The notes below the pieces were generated by a model that worked only from the letters and a program-made list of their open reading frames with translations, did no database searches and was not told the DNA's origin. A DNA stretch of 37,531 nt. Source: an uncultured Pseudomonadota bacterium (GTDB taxonomy: Bacteria; Myxococcota_A; Bradymonadia; Bradymonadales; Bradymonadaceae). The stretch is taken from positions 1-37,531 of the forward strand of contig CATLTV010000030.1 of the NCBI GenBank assembly GCA_950059285.1, read 5' to 3'. The translations under genes and the position numbers were made by a program. Numbering within the stretch: position 1 is the stretch's first letter; each line of letters begins with the position of its first letter. This document shows positions 2,767 through 10,852 of this stretch, piece by piece.

Positions 2767-3030
2767 TTATCCCTTCTCTGTCTCCGCCTCTCGACCTGGT
2801 CCTTCTGTCACTTGCTCTCGTTTTGCAGGCTCTGGCCTCACGCGACCCACCTTGATCTGACCCACATCATCAGGGTCAAGAATGCCCTGTCCAAGCAACT
2901 GCTCCACGATGTCATGATGATCTTGCTCATGCTCATAAGGGAGCGCATCATCCTCGGACTCATAATCAATAAATATATCTCGCTTGCCTGTCTTGGGGTT
3001 GGACACCAACCTGATCGTCATCTCAGCCAT
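2767..3030 (-). CDS. Small acidic protein of the FtsH-like operon (87 aa)
   Basis: The ATG at 3030 has an excellent AAGGAG ribosome site seven bases upstream. The 87-residue product begins with a short beta-strand-like stretch (MTIRLV) and then a G-K-R-D-I-F-I-D-Y turn-strand. An acidic/His patch around residues 25-40 (EDDALPYEHEQDHHD) and a charged tail follow. There is no signal peptide or membrane segment. The gene lies between the protease gene (59 bases upstream) and the giant gene (7 bases downstream), so co-transcription is likely. I do not recognise the family. The small size and compact N-terminal strands would suit an adaptor or ubiquitin-like/beta-grasp fold, but that is only a guess. 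Confidence 0.8.
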   Translation of the reverse strand: MAEMTIRLVSNPKTGKRDIFIDYESEDDALPYEHEQDHHDIVEQLLGQGILDPDDVGQIKVGRVRPEPAKREQVTEGPGREAETEKG

Positions 3031-3089: not shown

Positions 3090-5312
3090 TCAATCGTCAT
3101 CATCCTCGTCGTCCTCGTCCTCACGAGGTCGCAGCGTGTTGCCCTCGGGGTGGACTTTGAAGGACTTGCCCCCAAAGATCTCCTTCATCTCATCAAGGCC
3201 AATGGTCTTCTTCTCAATGAGAAGCTCAACGAGGGTGTCAAACTCGGCGCGATATTTTTGCAAGGTTTCAATGCATCGTCTCTGCTCGTCCATGATGATG
3301 CGGTTGATCTCGACATCAAGTCTGGCAGCGGTCTCATCCGCGATGTCACGACCAATGTTGATCTGGCTGTGTTGCTGTTGATCAAGCCTGTAGGCGCGAA
3401 GCCCCATCTCGGTGCTCATACCAAACTGCTCGACCATCATGGATGCAATGGAGGTTGCCTGCTGAAGGTCGTTCCAACATCCACTTGAGACGTCTCCCAG
3501 AATCAACCACTCGGCCTCTCGACCACCTAGCGCCACACAAATCGAGTCCAGCAACTCTGAACGCGTGCGTACATGCTGATTTCGTGCGGTGGCATGCATC
3601 ACATAACCAAGATAGGCTTCCTCCTCGCTGGCGATGGTGATGCGTTCCACAGTAGGACAGTGTGGCAAACAGTAAGCAAGAATCGCGTGACCTGCCTCGT
3701 GTACAGCAACCGTGCGACGCTCACTCTCTTCAAGAAAGACACGCGTCTTCTTGCGAGAGCCCATCACGCTGTCCACATCCTTTTGTGTGACCTCCATCGA
3801 TTTTGCACCACGACGTAACTGCTCACGCTTGAGCCCCCTCATGATTGCGTAAAGGTGGTCACCGCTGTAACGCACACCCTTGACCGCATCCACAAAACCC
3901 TGTGTTTGCTTGACCATATGATCCATCACATCGTCAGCGATCTGGAGGTTGAACTTCTTGGCGTAAATGTCGAAGATCTTCTTGCGGTCCTTCTTGTTTG
4001 GATAGGGAATTTCGATCGCCAACTCAAAACGCCCAGGACGCATCAACGCCTGATCCAGGGACTCCACAAAGTTTGTTGTACCCACAACAAACACAAGCTC
4101 CTCTTTCCTGAAGCCATCCATCTCGGTCAGCAACTGGTTGACCATGGAGTGCTCCACACCACTTCCCGTGTATGTGCCACGCGCCGAAGCAAAGGAATCA
4201 AGTTCGTCGAAGATGATGATGGATGGTGCGCTCTTACGCGCCAGTGCAAAGACCTTCCTCAGATTTTCTTCGCTCTCACCTACCCACTTTGACTTGAGTT
4301 CAGGACCAGACACAATGCTCACGGTCGCGTTCAGTGCTGTCGCAATCGCCTTGGCAAAGAAGGTCTTACCCGTACCAGGAGGACCATGGAAAATCATCCC
4401 CTTGGGCACGATCTCCTCGATGCTGCGAATGTCATCAGCGCTGTCCATGCCCTCCTTGGCGAGCAACAGGTCGAGAATTTCCTTGCGGATCTTCTTCTTC
4501 ACCTTGTCGTAGCCACCAATATCATTGTCCAGACTAACGTGCGGAACCTCAAGATCACCAACAAGTGTAAGCTTTCGAATATCCTGGTAAATCAGGTCCA
4601 CACTTCCAGGCATATTTGGATCAAAATCAACGCGTGATTCAAGCTGGTTTAACACCTGCCTCGCGCGCACTGCGTTCAAACCTGAGAGATACTTGTAGAG
4701 GTCGTAGGGGTTAAAGCTGTGCACTCCAAACTTGCGCGCTTCACGCTGCAAGATGAGCTGAGGCAACTTGTCACGACCAATGCCCACGATGGAGTACTTG
4801 ACCGTAAACACCTTCTCGATAACCTCGGGGATCTCAAAGTTTGGATCTGTAAATCCAAGGAACACAAGATCAGGGTTTTCATACATGATCGCGGCAGCTT
4901 CACGCGCCTCCACACCCAACGAACTACGTGTTGTTGTCGTCAATATATCGAGGTGTGTGATCGCAAAGACACCATCTGTGCGTGCGCCATAAATTGCCTC
5001 ACGCAGCTCATCAAGCAAACGCTGTGTCAACGTGGCATTGGCCTGCATCGGGTTAGGATCATCAGGAGCGACCGCGCGTGGATGCCCTGAAAGTAGACGC
5101 AATGAAGGGCCTCCCGACGCGCGAAACCTCTTGCGGAGCGCCTTGTAAATGTAGTTTGAAAGCTGCTTATCACACTCGATTAACACCGAGAGACGCGCCC
5201 TTAACTTCTCCTCTATCCAGTCCAGATCCTCACGATAAGCAGCCTCAACGGCTTCATCGTAACTTAACTGTGTGGGGAGCTGTTCGATCGCTACAGAGAG
5301 TTCACTACTCAC
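3090..5312 (-). CDS. Soluble AAA ATPase-M41 metallopeptidase (FtsH-like) with N-terminal degenerate AAA-like domain
   Basis: This 740-aa protein is an ATP-driven zinc protease. The active AAA module has Walker A GPPGTGKT at 310-317, Walker B FDELDS at 368-373 and an arginine-finger segment MRPGRFE at about 424-430. The peptidase has HEAGH at 538-542 and the third zinc ligand as Asp615 in the GCWNDLQQAT segment, so the M41 site looks intact. True FtsH has two N-terminal membrane helices and a periplasmic loop; here there are none. Residues 100-200 instead look like a second AAA domain lacking Walker A. The pore-loop segment KWVGESE (342-348) is of the CDC48/Vps4 type rather than FtsH's FVGVGAS. 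The tail (731-740) is almost all acidic. Translation starts at GTG 5312, with AAGG seven bases upstream. It is the central enzyme of the operon, inferred to degrade or remodel substrates delivered by the neighbouring proteins. Confidence 0.95.
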   Translation of the reverse strand: MSSELSVAIEQLPTQLSYDEAVEAAYREDLDWIEEKLRARLSVLIECDKQLSNYIYKALRKRFRASGGPSLRLLSGHPRAVAPDDPNPMQANATLTQRLLDELREAIYGARTDGVFAITHLDILTTTTRSSLGVEAREAAAIMYENPDLVFLGFTDPNFEIPEVIEKVFTVKYSIVGIGRDKLPQLILQREARKFGVHSFNPYDLYKYLSGLNAVRARQVLNQLESRVDFDPNMPGSVDLIYQDIRKLTLVGDLEVPHVSLDNDIGGYDKVKKKIRKEILDLLLAKEGMDSADDIRSIEEIVPKGMIFHGPPGTGKTFFAKAIATALNATVSIVSGPELKSKWVGESEENLRKVFALARKSAPSIIIFDELDSFASARGTYTGSGVEHSMVNQLLTEMDGFRKEELVFVVGTTNFVESLDQALMRPGRFELAIEIPYPNKKDRKKIFDIYAKKFNLQIADDVMDHMVKQTQGFVDAVKGVRYSGDHLYAIMRGLKREQLRRGAKSMEVTQKDVDSVMGSRKKTRVFLEESERRTVAVHEAGHAILAYCLPHCPTVERITIASEEEAYLGYVMHATARNQHVRTRSELLDSICVALGGREAEWLILGDVSSGCWNDLQQATSIASMMVEQFGMSTEMGLRAYRLDQQQHSQINIGRDIADETAARLDVEINRIIMDEQRRCIETLQKYRAEFDTLVELLIEKKTIGLDEMKEIFGGKSFKVHPEGNTLRPREDEDDEDDDD

Positions 5313-5455: not shown

Positions 5456-6022
5456 TCAAACCTCAATCTTGATCACCAGCTCATACTCACCCGCTTCGTT
5501 GGTGCCCTCGTACTCCTCGACCACATCGCCAAGACGTCGCGCCTTGCGCTTGAGCGCCTCGGAGTACACATCTTGAAGCACCTGATTCATCTCCTCGAGA
5601 CGATCGCTTTCACCAGCAGCAAGCCTGGAGCTGACATCGCTCTGAGCATCCTTCTGACCACGCTCAAGCAAGGCATTGGCCTGCTGTTGTGCGCGGTTCT
5701 CTGCCTGGCGCTTTGCTGCGGCACGCGTCTCTGCATCACCCCAGGAATCCACCTTGCCAGATACGGTCTTCTCGACCTCAAGCTCGGCCGTCAACTCCAG
5801 AGACTCCATATCCACAGTGATCATCTCACCTGAAGCACCTTCCTTGACGAGCTTCTTGCCCTCTTCTTCCTCTTCAAAACCTTGCTCGACCAGGCGCGCG
5901 CGCAAGAGGTCTTTCATCTCATCCTCTGGCAGGACATCTCTTAGATCAAGCTGGTGAACTGTCTTGTCATCTGCCGAGACGACTTCGCACACCTTTAGTG
6001 ACACACGATATGCTAAACTCAT
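5456..6022 (-). CDS. Acidic coiled-coil-like protein of the FtsH-like operon (188 aa)
   Basis: I chose the ATG at 6022 because AGGAGA lies seven bases upstream; an in-frame GTG 11 codons earlier has no comparable site. The protein begins with a strand-rich segment (MSLAYRVSLKVCEVVSADD) and is Glu/Asp-rich. A long Ala/Gln/Arg-rich helical stretch of coiled-coil character spans about residues 95-160. It ends with a strand-like segment (YELVIKIEV). There is no signal peptide or membrane helix. It follows the 373-aa gene by 36 bases and precedes the protease gene after a hairpin. I do not recognise a family; an adaptor or structural subunit is plausible from context only. Confidence 0.8.
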   Translation of the reverse strand: MSLAYRVSLKVCEVVSADDKTVHQLDLRDVLPEDEMKDLLRARLVEQGFEEEEEGKKLVKEGASGEMITVDMESLELTAELEVEKTVSGKVDSWGDAETRAAAKRQAENRAQQQANALLERGQKDAQSDVSSRLAAGESDRLEEMNQVLQDVYSEALKRKARRLGDVVEEYEGTNEAGEYELVIKIEV

Positions 6023-6058
6023 AATGGTTCTCCTGTTTTTGTGTTGTGCTCCCACATG

Positions 6059-7180
6059 TTACGCTCCAATAACTCCCCTGAGTGTATTGGAGAACACATG
6101 GGCGCGGTGTGCAATTTCAGCAAAGGGTTCCTGCTCGTAGGTGCTCATAAACACCTTGTCGCCAGCCTCACGATCAATGGGGTGAATCTGACGAATATCC
6201 TCATACTCCGTCCTGATGCGCTGACATAAATCAACCCATCTGGACCACATCTGGCGATAGGAGTCGCGCTCCGAGAGCTTGAGCTGTCTGGCTATCTTGT
6301 TGAATGAGTTGAGCTGATTCTTCTCATATGGAATCTCTGCACCGTTCTTTTGAACAGCGAGCACATCCCTGAAGAACTCAATAAAAACGAGAAGATAGTC
6401 TTTTCTGCTCCTCTGTTCTGCCAACGTAAATAACGCCTCGCCAAAGTGAGCAAGACCACGATTGAGTTTATCAAATCTGTCCAGACTTTCCCACCTTGAG
6501 AGCAATTGATAACTCCAATAGTTGGCCACATATTTCGTAAGCCATGGCCAGGAGGGCTCAAGGTCATCCTGAAACAACCGATTCACCACGGCCAATGCAT
6601 CCTCTTCCTCGGGCATATTCAATGTCACGAGTCTGGTCAGAGGATTACGGCCAAAGCTCTGAAGCGCCACATCAGCAATACGAAAGTTGGCGTCATCAAG
6701 ACGCTTCCACACAATGTGTGAAGCCAACAGATCACCATTTAACTTCGTACTCGGATGCACGCTCTTGGGGTAATTACGCGTCTTGGGGACAGGCATCCCA
6801 CTGGCAAAACACATCGCGTTGTACGCAAAGATCACGCTCTCGATCGAATGCTTGCTAAACGCCAGTCGACGCCCTGCTCCCCTCCACTGCTCCTGGCCAA
6901 TGCCACGTTGATTATGACGTGGATCATCCCTGCCAGTGTCCGCAACCATACGTTTTTGCCAGGCTCCCTGACGGCTTAAAAACGCCAGCGTACCTCGCTC
7001 AATCGAGGCAGCGAGCGCGTCCACAACCTCGCGTGTTAACACCTCGGGATCGCCCAGTGGTAACGGCTTGGAGTGCCTTAATTGCAAGGGCGAGTTTTGA
7101 AAAATATCCACGCCAAAGGGCAACATGTGAAAGGCTGCGATTTCCTGCAACCTGTTGTCTGATATCGTCTTTCTTGACAT
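6059..7180 (-). CDS. Unknown cytoplasmic protein of the FtsH-like operon (373 aa)
   Basis: ATG at 7180, 24 bases after the stop of the radical-SAM gene; the ribosome site is weak. The protein is mostly alpha-helical, with many Trp/Arg/Phe residues and a short invariant-looking stretch HSIESVIFAYNAMCFASGMPVPKT cut here into its key parts: HSIES, AYNAMCFASG and PVPKT at about residues 111-134. No nucleotide-binding, zinc or protease motif is evident, and no signal peptide. Its place between the radical-SAM enzyme and the acidic coiled-coil protein, all on one strand with short gaps, indicates a dedicated component of the same system. I do not recognise the family. Confidence 0.85.
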   Translation of the reverse strand: MSRKTISDNRLQEIAAFHMLPFGVDIFQNSPLQLRHSKPLPLGDPEVLTREVVDALAASIERGTLAFLSRQGAWQKRMVADTGRDDPRHNQRGIGQEQWRGAGRRLAFSKHSIESVIFAYNAMCFASGMPVPKTRNYPKSVHPSTKLNGDLLASHIVWKRLDDANFRIADVALQSFGRNPLTRLVTLNMPEEEDALAVVNRLFQDDLEPSWPWLTKYVANYWSYQLLSRWESLDRFDKLNRGLAHFGEALFTLAEQRSRKDYLLVFIEFFRDVLAVQKNGAEIPYEKNQLNSFNKIARQLKLSERDSYRQMWSRWVDLCQRIRTEYEDIRQIHPIDREAGDKVFMSTYEQEPFAEIAHRAHVFSNTLRGVIGA

Positions 7181-7204: not shown

Positions 7205-7867
7205 TTACTTTGACTTCGCTCGGATCGATGCTCGGGATAACTCCACGATGCTCTCCTCAGGAAATCCATTGATGGAGATCTGATCTCCCACCATACGCAG
7301 CTCAATCGTATTGGGCTCCTCGGCCCATCCTGAACTGGTCTCGGCCAGGTGCTTGTAACGCTCTGTTAAAAAATGAACCTGCTGGTTGGATGAACCAATC
7401 CATCTCCTGTCATTGACATGCATGGACTTGATATAGGGGCCATCCACCAAGAGGTCGATCTGCGATAAAAATGCGCTCCAATCATCCCGATTCTCTCGCT
7501 TTATACGTCGCATTGTCAAACCTGAAAAGACCATCACGCCAAGTCCTCTGGACCTCACCTCGCGCGCAACCTCAGCGAGCGCTTCAGCTTGCCAGAACGG
7601 CTCCCCTCCAATGAAGGTCACACCCTCTATCCCCTCCGTGTTGACGATCCTCTCCACCACATCATCCACATGACATAACTCCATTCTCTGATCCTCCAAC
7701 ATGTGCGGGTTACAACACCCCTTGCACCTCAAAGGACACCCCTGCACCCATAGCGCATAACGCACACCTGGCCCCTCAGCCTCTGTACGTGGCACCTCGT
7801 TGGCCACGTTGACCCACGCTGCACCCATCTCTGTTGAACTTGTAAACTCAGGGGCTTCACCCTTCAT
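7205..7867 (-). CDS. NrdG-like radical SAM activating protein
   Basis: This 220-aa protein has the radical-SAM 4Fe-4S motif C-x3-C-x2-C at Cys44, Cys48 and Cys51 (GCPLRCKGCC) and the SAM-binding GGEP at 87-90. It is the size of a minimal single-domain activase such as NrdG (anaerobic ribonucleotide reductase activation) or PflA. Family knowledge: such enzymes cleave S-adenosylmethionine to a 5'-deoxyadenosyl radical and usually install a glycyl radical on a partner. No NrdD- or PFL-like glycyl-radical protein is present in the window, so a new partner within this operon is possible. The start is firm: AGGAG lies six bases before ATG 7867. It is the first gene of the leftward operon, and the regulator gene diverges from it. 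Confidence 0.9.
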   Translation of the reverse strand: MKGEAPEFTSSTEMGAAWVNVANEVPRTEAEGPGVRYALWVQGCPLRCKGCCNPHMLEDQRMELCHVDDVVERIVNTEGIEGVTFIGGEPFWQAEALAEVAREVRSRGLGVMVFSGLTMRRIKRENRDDWSAFLSQIDLLVDGPYIKSMHVNDRRWIGSSNQQVHFLTERYKHLAETSSGWAEEPNTIELRMVGDQISINGFPEESIVELSRASIRAKSK

Positions 7868-8447: not shown

Positions 8448-10712
8448 CTAACTCAGCTTGAATCGCTTTGCTTCAACTCTACCACGCATTGAACGCACGC
8501 GCTCTTCACCCTTCCAGATCACTCGCAATGCCCCATCCTGAGCATCCAAGCCACCGCCCTTGACGTGGTTGGAACGCAGCGAGAGCCTGTCTGAGAGCTC
8601 AACGCCCATCGTCATCACACTCTGCTTGTGGTTCACATCACCGATGCCCACCGCGCTTGGCTCCTCCATCGCCAAGTTGCCTGTACACTCCACATCCAAC
8701 AACTTGACCACAAAGGGTAACTTCAACTCACCATTACCAATCGCTTCCTCCACAAAGGAAGACACCTGCACGCCCGCATACATCGCACCGCAACTCTCAA
8801 GCTGCGCCACATTATCCTGAAACACACAACGATCCTTCAGGCGTATCGAACCGTTCACACTTGCAACGCCTCCTCCCATTGACGCTTCATTGGCTCGCAC
8901 AAGTAACTCTGTCCCCAATAGCTCTGCGCCATGAAGCAAATACACCGCCCCACCCAGACTGCTAACATCATCACCCTTGTTATACTCAAAACCCACGTTG
9001 CTCGCCTGAATCACGCTGCCACCCAGCGCCAACAACGCACCTCCCCCCTTCTGACCAAAGTTCTTCTCGCACTCCACAAAGGAGAGCTTGACGATGCTTC
9101 GTGTCTCCTCATCATACCCACCCACAGCCAGAATAGCTCCGCCTGAACGTGAGCGATTGTCCTTCATGACCAGAGGTTTTGCCCTGTCCGTACCCTGCAT
9201 CAACATGCGGCTCGCAATACAGGCGATCGCACCACCTGACATACTCGCGCCATTACTTCGAAACTCACAGTCCACAATCTTGATCTGACTGGAACCAACC
9301 CAGATTGCACCACCTGTCCCCTCTTGCTCTTCCCATCGCGCGGGCTCAAGATCCTCCAAAGCTTCCACAGGTAAGTGCTTGACCTGGCTCTTGTTTTCAA
9401 GGAACTCACTGGTTGTTACCGAGCACATGCCACGCATTCCCCAGAAACAAAGCGCGCCTCCGCGCTTGGATCGGTTGCGTTCAAACAAACAGCTCTCAAC
9501 CTTCACCGCACTCTCGGTCGCGGCAATCGCACCACCCTCGGGAGACTTGTTGTCCCTGAAGATACTGCCCACAAACCGAATACCGCCCACGCTGATATCC
9601 GAACCTGAAAGCTCAACAAAGGCACCACCCTGGTCAAACTGTTCAACAACACAGCTCACCACAGAGACCTTCTCTCCACGGCTCAAACGAATCCCTACCT
9701 GACCTGCCTTGCCTCGTCCCACAATGTGACAACCAAAGATCCCCTGCCCTCCACCTGGATCAAAGCGGACGCCAATCTTCTCCATACCTGGAATCAAAAT
9801 CGTGACACGATCCACATCGCCCACATCACGTTGTCCCTGAAGCCACCTCAATCGCTCCTCAGGACCTCCTTCAGCGGGCATCCTGTGGTTCACAATCGCA
9901 ACCTGTGGAGGAAGCACCACGTGCTCCTTGTACACGCCAGGCATGACACGAATCTGCACGCCTCGCTGCGTCTCGCGGACGAGCTGACGGGCACGAATAA
10001 TCGCATCTTTGATGGTTGAATATGGAACCTCACGACTACCTTGCTCGCCCTCATCAAGACTGAACCCTGCCATGTCATGCTCGGGGTCCACATACAACAC
10101 AGGCAAACGACTCATCCCCGAAGGCGAGAAGAAGCCGTCGATGGTCGCCTCCTCTTCCTTGATGATTGCCTCCATTCTACGCGTTTCGCTAATCTGGATG
10201 CCCACCTGATCCATCAATGTCTGACCTTGCTCCTGATCCTCTTTTGAGGTCGAGCGCCAGCTCTCAACTTTCTCCCCTTCAGGCTTTAGAATATTGGCAA
10301 GTCCTTCATCTTCAAGCTCAATTTCAATCCCTTGCTCAAGCTCTCTTTGCGTAACTTTGGTGCTTCTCATCGGCTCACGAACAGGTCGGTGACGTACTCT
10401 CGCTTCTTGCTCAAGACGCTCTGGCAATGCCGCTCTTCTATCCCGGGGATTGCCAAGCATCGACATGATTGCACCCACGAGCAATGCACCCATACCTGAC
10501 ACAAAACCTTCTCTTGAGGCCCACACAGGATGCGCGTCCCAACACAATCCAGCGCCGCTCATCGATGCGCTCAAATCCTCCTGGCCCAGTGCAATCCTAA
10601 GATCAGAAATGTTGCCTGGAAATTCCAGCGCACAACTGATCCATGGCACAAACGACGCCAGAAGGATCACGACACCTATCAATACTAATATTTTCCCTAC
10701 GTTACGAATCAT
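8448..10712 (-). CDS. Membrane-anchored right-handed beta-helix protein (754 aa)
   Basis: Two hydrophobic segments at the N-terminus (about residues 5-27 and 70-85) flank a small Cys-containing loop. A charged Glu/Arg-rich linker follows (about 90-200). The C-terminal ~550 residues carry many GGA(I/L/V) and FxxN-type elements (GGAIAAT, GGALCFW, GGAIWVG, GGAIACI, GGAILAV, GGGALLAL, GGAVYLL). These are typical of parallel beta-helix proteins and chlamydial polymorphic-membrane-protein-like repeats. A 'VDPEH...STIKDAI..A' start like DUF1565/pectate-lyase helices precedes them. ATG 10712 is preferred over a TTG two codons earlier; neither has a clear ribosome site. The topology is unusual because the helix domain follows membrane helices rather than a cleaved signal. 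Function unknown; surface binding or polysaccharide recognition are possibilities. Confidence 0.85.
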   Translation of the reverse strand: MIRNVGKILVLIGVVILLASFVPWISCALEFPGNISDLRIALGQEDLSASMSGAGLCWDAHPVWASREGFVSGMGALLVGAIMSMLGNPRDRRAALPERLEQEARVRHRPVREPMRSTKVTQRELEQGIEIELEDEGLANILKPEGEKVESWRSTSKEDQEQGQTLMDQVGIQISETRRMEAIIKEEEATIDGFFSPSGMSRLPVLYVDPEHDMAGFSLDEGEQGSREVPYSTIKDAIIRARQLVRETQRGVQIRVMPGVYKEHVVLPPQVAIVNHRMPAEGGPEERLRWLQGQRDVGDVDRVTILIPGMEKIGVRFDPGGGQGIFGCHIVGRGKAGQVGIRLSRGEKVSVVSCVVEQFDQGGAFVELSGSDISVGGIRFVGSIFRDNKSPEGGAIAATESAVKVESCLFERNRSKRGGALCFWGMRGMCSVTTSEFLENKSQVKHLPVEALEDLEPARWEEQEGTGGAIWVGSSQIKIVDCEFRSNGASMSGGAIACIASRMLMQGTDRAKPLVMKDNRSRSGGAILAVGGYDEETRSIVKLSFVECEKNFGQKGGGALLALGGSVIQASNVGFEYNKGDDVSSLGGAVYLLHGAELLGTELLVRANEASMGGGVASVNGSIRLKDRCVFQDNVAQLESCGAMYAGVQVSSFVEEAIGNGELKLPFVVKLLDVECTGNLAMEEPSAVGIGDVNHKQSVMTMGVELSDRLSLRSNHVKGGGLDAQDGALRVIWKGEERVRSMRGRVEAKRFKLS

Positions 10713-10852
10713 AACCAAGTCACTGTGAAGTCAATTTGTTCAGGAGTTTTCATGTCCCCACGCTCACTCTAACCCACCATCCGCACCTTGCCTAGAAAAC
10801 TGCCTTATCCTATCCTCTCCACGTATTTAGAACATCCATCTCATGAGGTACC

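Follow-up and report, generated by a model that had tools for sequence, protein, structure and literature searches.

The FtsH ternary systems were described by computational analysis (Kaur et al., 2020; eLife e52696, PMC7159879), and in the literature searched the phrase is used in that paper alone. The known set consists of a vWA protein, a MoxR protein and an FtsH component, together with the accessory proteins X3, X5, X6 and X7 and a radical-SAM enzyme. As described there, the MoxR protein carries the motif GXXXTAKS, and the third component joins an inactive N-terminal AAA domain to an active second one, both labelled FtsH-type; the terms 'M41' and 'CDC48' are absent from the main text of the paper. 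A role in biological conflict was argued from effectors and from an enrichment among multicellular bacteria (63 of 79 organisms; Kaur et al., 2020). The literature searched yielded no experiments on any FtsH ternary system, and no biochemistry or genetics of the protein considered here.

That protein is encoded in a 37,531-nucleotide stretch of DNA, referred to here as the window. The first-pass annotation had seen in it a machine distinct from membrane FtsH. Distinct it is, but the architecture is not new, being that of the third component of FtsH ternary systems (Kaur et al., 2020). The protein is very probably the FtsH-like component of such a system, most likely working as a cytosolic hexameric ATP-driven protease.

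The protease gene and its domains

The gene begins with a GTG codon that is supported by relatives aligning from their first residues (Table 1). A plus-strand reading of the same interval was rejected, since that frame contains stops. Other Myxococcota have full-length relatives with 38-74% identity, so the gene is not a chance open reading frame; the closest named relatives are metagenome-assembled Myxococcales and Lujinxingiaceae (order Bradymonadales) records.

Table 1. Features of the protease gene and its neighbours in the window
Feature	Position	Strand	Size and basis
fvmX7 protein, cut by the contig end	3..2759	minus	919 aa read; Pfam E 2e-15
fvmX3-analog	2767..3030	minus	87 aa; Pfam E 6e-25; conserved directly after FtsH in relatives
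Double-AAA M41 protease gene	3090..5312	minus	740 aa, GTG start; third component of FtsH ternary system
Peptidase M41, residues 527-712, HEAGH 538-542 and Asp615	3177..3734	minus	Pfam, alignment, motifs
Active AAA ATPase domain, residues 254-520, CDC48-like	3753..4553	minus	Pfam, alignment, trees, profile scores
Pore loop SKWVGE, residues 341-346	4275..4292	minus	Alignment; intein site in five relatives
N-terminal AAA-fold domain (predicted), residues 18-250, without Walker A	4563..5261	minus	Predicted structure and motif survey
fvmX5	5456..6055	minus	199 aa; Pfam E 3e-22; relatives' neighbourhoods
fvmX6-like protein	6059..7180	minus	373 aa; Pfam weak, E 0.005, below cut-off; relatives' neighbourhoods
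Radical-SAM protein, NrdG-like	7205..7867	minus	220 aa; profile matches; relatives' neighbourhoods

Pfam places an AAA match at residues 306-437 (E 1e-40) and a Peptidase_M41 match at residues 527-712 (E 3e-46), leaving residues 1-250 without a match. The KWVGESE, MVNQLLTEMDG and HEAGH segments and the Asp615 singled out in the first-pass annotation are all present in the minus-strand frame, and its assignment of the peptidase to family M41 is borne out by the Pfam match, the HExxH motif and the Asp ligand. The Walker A, S[KR]WVGE pore loop, Walker B and RPGRF motifs of the second domain are kept, along with HExGH, in 32 of 32 distinct family proteins, and D615 is invariant in an alignment of 14 sequences. 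The lack of membrane helices, also claimed at the outset, agrees with hydropathy: the highest 19-residue Kyte-Doolittle mean is 1.32, whereas the genome's two ordinary FtsH proteins peak at 2.9 and 2.8.

Two variations were observed among the relatives. In five of them the active AAA domain has an intein (Intein_splicing and LAGLIDADG_3) inserted in its pore loop, between SKWVGE and SEENL; the carriers (L044:8449-11991, L045:9178-12726, L161:4242-7718, L162:4397-7993 and L163:3362-6952) fall into two family groups, f2 and f27. Four others (L109, L035, L104 and L112) have a putative extra N-terminal stretch of ~200-300 residues ahead of the AAA-like domain. An extra domain in a subset of FtsH components is mentioned by Kaur et al. 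(2020).

Neighbouring genes and MoxR-vWA partners

The accessory fvmX proteins and the radical-SAM gene of the FtsH ternary system accompany the protease gene, the X6 match being weak. In a locus of the window's own family (L183) the gene order is rSAM-X6-X5-FtsH-X3-X7-MoxR-vWA, and relatives share the order of the window with bpMoxR and ivWA added. The window retains the series from rSAM to X7 and stops inside X7 because it is a whole contig (C30); the fvmX7 protein is longer in three relatives (L032, L033 and L044).

Some features of these neighbours deserve mention in their own right. The X3 protein and the relatives listed with it keep an E/H/D-rich motif resembling DALPxEHExDHRxLVE, which may bind metal. 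Although small and conserved, X3 has a variable C-terminal tail, and it is not proposed as a peptide substrate of the radical-SAM enzyme. PADLOC links the radical-SAM protein weakly to prokaryotic viperin (E 2e-6), the NrdG match being stronger. Adjoining the system, positions 8448-10718 encode a large protein with matches to Chlamydia-type polymorphic membrane protein repeats and to beta-helix folds.

The MoxR and system-specific vWA genes are in the same genome as the protease but on contig C5 rather than C30. The only ivWA of that genome forms a pair with its top bpMoxR match in the interior of C5, and the P-loop of this MoxR reads GKPGTAKS. The closest relative (G007) likewise has its MoxR-vWA pair on another contig, and linkage of MoxR/vWA to FtsH is seen in L183, L037, L044, L184 and L041. 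Components rather than linkage are taken here to define an FtsH ternary system, linkage having been the route of discovery in the published work.

The N-terminal module was found in 42 of the 377 Myxococcota genomes searched. An ivWA accompanies it in 34 of these 42 and occurs in none of 38 sampled Myxococcota genomes without the module, which come mostly from the window's own family and class and are not a matched sample (Fisher p 3e-15, ignoring relatedness); in the remaining 8 no ivWA was seen. Module and ivWA share one contig in 14 of the 34 genomes and lie on different contigs in 20. Fragmentation is not the full reason for this separation, since the FtsH contigs of G366 and G247 measure 454 and 304 kb. 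One genome (G043) has two double-AAA proteases (L037 and L042), one beside MoxR-vWA and the other without the pair in the stretch read, and another (G322) has two modules, each sharing a contig with an ivWA. A search of plasmids and phages for relatives of the N-terminal module gave no match, and a scan of genome contigs with the protein found, beyond close relatives, ordinary AAA or FtsH loci only.

The assignment to an FtsH ternary system rests on the adjacent Pfam FtsH-ternary families, the gene order of relatives and the co-occurrence of ivWA, as well as on the P-loop of the C5 MoxR, which fits the published GXXXTAKS (Kaur et al., 2020).

Proposed activity and role

The motor and peptidase motifs are intact in all 32 family proteins and the predicted tandem aligns in the manner of D1-D2; the protein is best explained as a probable ATP-driven two-ring protease. 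Six subunits would assemble into such a particle, in which the second AAA ring may pull substrate through the SKWVGE pore loops and feed it to the M41 zinc peptidase for degradation. The first, ATP-dead ring would stack on top like CDC48 D1 and could offer partner proteins a docking or gating platform, replacing the membrane anchor of ordinary FtsH. The MoxR-vWA pair would control the protease, and the whole may serve in biological conflict, as proposed by Kaur et al. (2020).

The system could, however, have a role other than conflict. It is a substantial possibility, somewhat short of even, that it acts as a maturation or quality-control machine whose protease clears failed products, after the fashion of other MoxR-vWA pairs. 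Such an assignment draws on what Kaur et al. (2020) quote about the roles of RavA-ViaA and further MoxR-vWA pairs, and is consistent with the window, where the genes scanned include no other evident defence genes and PADLOC returned general AAA matches and the weak viperin match only. The published argument from effectors and multicellular hosts speaks against it and for conflict (Kaur et al., 2020). As for the ATP-driven protease itself, the family provides soluble full-length proteins for a system so far predicted from sequence. Since their ATPase and peptidase residues are intact, the protease step predicted for FtsH ternary systems can be tested in vitro.

Ancestry of the active AAA domain

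Three trees bear on the origin of the motor. The first contains 87 rows, including 29 double-AAA and 26 FtsH rows, CDC48 D1 and D2 and single-AAA proteins; the second contains 83 rows, with four long or odd rows left out; and the third contains 65 rows after thinning, with 12 PAN-like rows added and nine long or odd rows left out. In the 87-row and 83-row trees, L044 and L045 carry intein residues replacing the first part of the domain. In the 87-row tree the 29 double-AAA rows (100/100) and the 26 FtsH rows (100/97) each form a clade, and the double-AAA proteins together with CDC48 D1/D2 are split from the FtsH and single-AAA rows at 99/82. Double-AAA proteins again group with CDC48 at 99/96 (83 rows) and 97/94 (65 rows), and their nearest neighbour in the free trees is CDC48 D2 (91/58, 93/78 and 98/85, the last in the 65-row tree). 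Profile scores of the double-AAA group are 427 for CDC48 D2, 327 for CDC48 D1, 322 for FtsH and 319 for PAN.

A position of the active AAA within bacterial FtsH, which would have refuted the first-pass reading, was rejected beside either of two FtsH subsets (AU p 0.0006 and 0.0007), and the domain is outside the FtsH clade. Placement with CDC48, nearest its D2, is the best-supported though not the sole acceptable one, in line with the CDC48-type core suggested by the first-pass annotation, on a stem that is very long (2.23 in the 87-row tree). If this placement is true, AAA motors and M41 peptidases have been united more than once.

The long stem suits a different history, in which the active AAA would be a fast-diverged FtsH domain, sister to all FtsH, with CDC48-like motifs arising by convergence, a single ancestral AAA-M41 protease having doubled its AAA domain and shed the membrane part. 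The AU test did not reject a grouping of the double-AAA proteins with all FtsH (p 0.085 with 83 rows and 0.20 with 65 rows), the M41 domain has no close kin besides FtsH in the searches made, and both AAA domains are labelled FtsH-type by Kaur et al. (2020). This history is to be taken seriously but is rather doubtful, as the free trees unite the double-AAA proteins with CDC48, the profile score to CDC48 D2 exceeds that to FtsH and a position inside FtsH is rejected (p ~0.0007). An independent AAA-M41 origin, a tentative reading with nearly an even chance, would start from a CDC48-like tandem unfoldase whose first ring became ATP-dead, which lost its N domain, captured an M41 peptidase and came to be switched by MoxR-vWA. 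If true, this origin would have produced a soluble protein that unites CDC48 and protease in a single chain. Relative to the published FtsH-type label, the CDC48 placement is a modest refinement of motor ancestry.

The N-terminal ATP-dead domain

The first-pass annotation had located a second AAA domain at residues 100-200, with a Walker-B-like run but no Walker A. An AAA domain is indeed predicted there, but it extends over residues ~18-250. Its lack of Walker A is general, with a P-loop in 0 of 32 distinct family proteins, and the place resembling a Walker B is degenerate, H-L-D (residues 120-122) instead of D-E-x-D, with HLD occupying it in 31 of the 32.

AlphaFold2 models of the whole protein (mean pLDDT 81.5, from 14 window and relative sequences) and of residues 1-259 alone (mean pLDDT 83.2, from 13 sequences) provide the fold check proposed at the outset, and the latter predicts a full AAA domain with lid (Z ~13), so that the non-AAA fold named as refuting the first-pass reading did not appear. 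Strands and helices follow one another across residues 18-250 of the model as in an AAA core and its helical lid. Its top Foldseek match is p97 (E 2e-6, probability 1.00), and VIA-align gives Z 12.2-13.2 over ~201-215 residues, from model residue 19 to ~250 and covering core and lid, with mostly 26S Rpt subunits and p97 or Cdc48 D1 as partners. In the full model the tandem aligns with D1-D2 of Rix7, AFG2, NVL, p97 and Cdc48 over 374-462 residues.

Profile-profile comparison of residues 1-250 with five AAA groups gave nothing significant, an M41 control scoring alike, in a setup that returned 100% probability between true AAA groups. The assignment is thus structural: residues 18-250 are predicted to be an AAA fold without nucleotide-binding motifs. 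The absent profile and Pfam matches would also fit a Rossmann-like, non-AAA domain, which is very unlikely given the Foldseek match to p97, the Z scores across both core and lid, and the D1-D2-like arrangement in the full model.

Comparison with known systems

In an M41 tree that is unrooted and has no outgroup, double-AAA proteins and ordinary FtsH split at 100/100; two rows labelled FtsH (L018 and L019) are pieces of double-AAA proteins. The score against the CDC48 model TIGR01243 is 196.4 bits, below its cut-off of 802.65. Identity with an ordinary housekeeping membrane FtsH, for which the M41 and AAA matches might be taken, is refuted by the score in the FtsH equivalog TIGR01241 (314.5 bits against a cut-off of 600), by hydropathy and by the AU test against nesting, in a genome that already has two ordinary FtsH genes elsewhere.

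The locus resembles the FtsH ternary systems as published in its first AAA domain without P-loop and Walker B and its active second one, its GXXXTAKS MoxR, its divergent vWA with a helical N-terminal region, its radical-SAM gene and its Pfam fvm families (Kaur et al., 2020). It differs from them in that the MoxR-vWA pair lies on another contig, and the free trees, by grouping the active AAA domain with CDC48, depart from the published FtsH-type label of both AAA domains.

Like the FtsH, m-AAA and i-AAA proteases, the protein places an AAA domain before an M41 domain carrying HExGH and, further on, an Asp ligand; unlike them, it is without membrane helices, has an extra AAA domain and is not nested in FtsH by its AAA. 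With CDC48, p97, Rix7 and AFG2 it shares the tandem AAA arrangement, an active AAA near D2 and the KWVGE pore loop, whereas its first AAA lacks nucleotide motifs, the N domain is absent and the C-terminus carries a fused peptidase. The Ycf2-FtsHi motor, a Foldseek match, is comparable as a large FtsH-related complex with altered subunits. In that motor the FtsHi subunits are peptidase-dead, whereas the present protein keeps its peptidase residues and it is one of its AAA domains that is dead.
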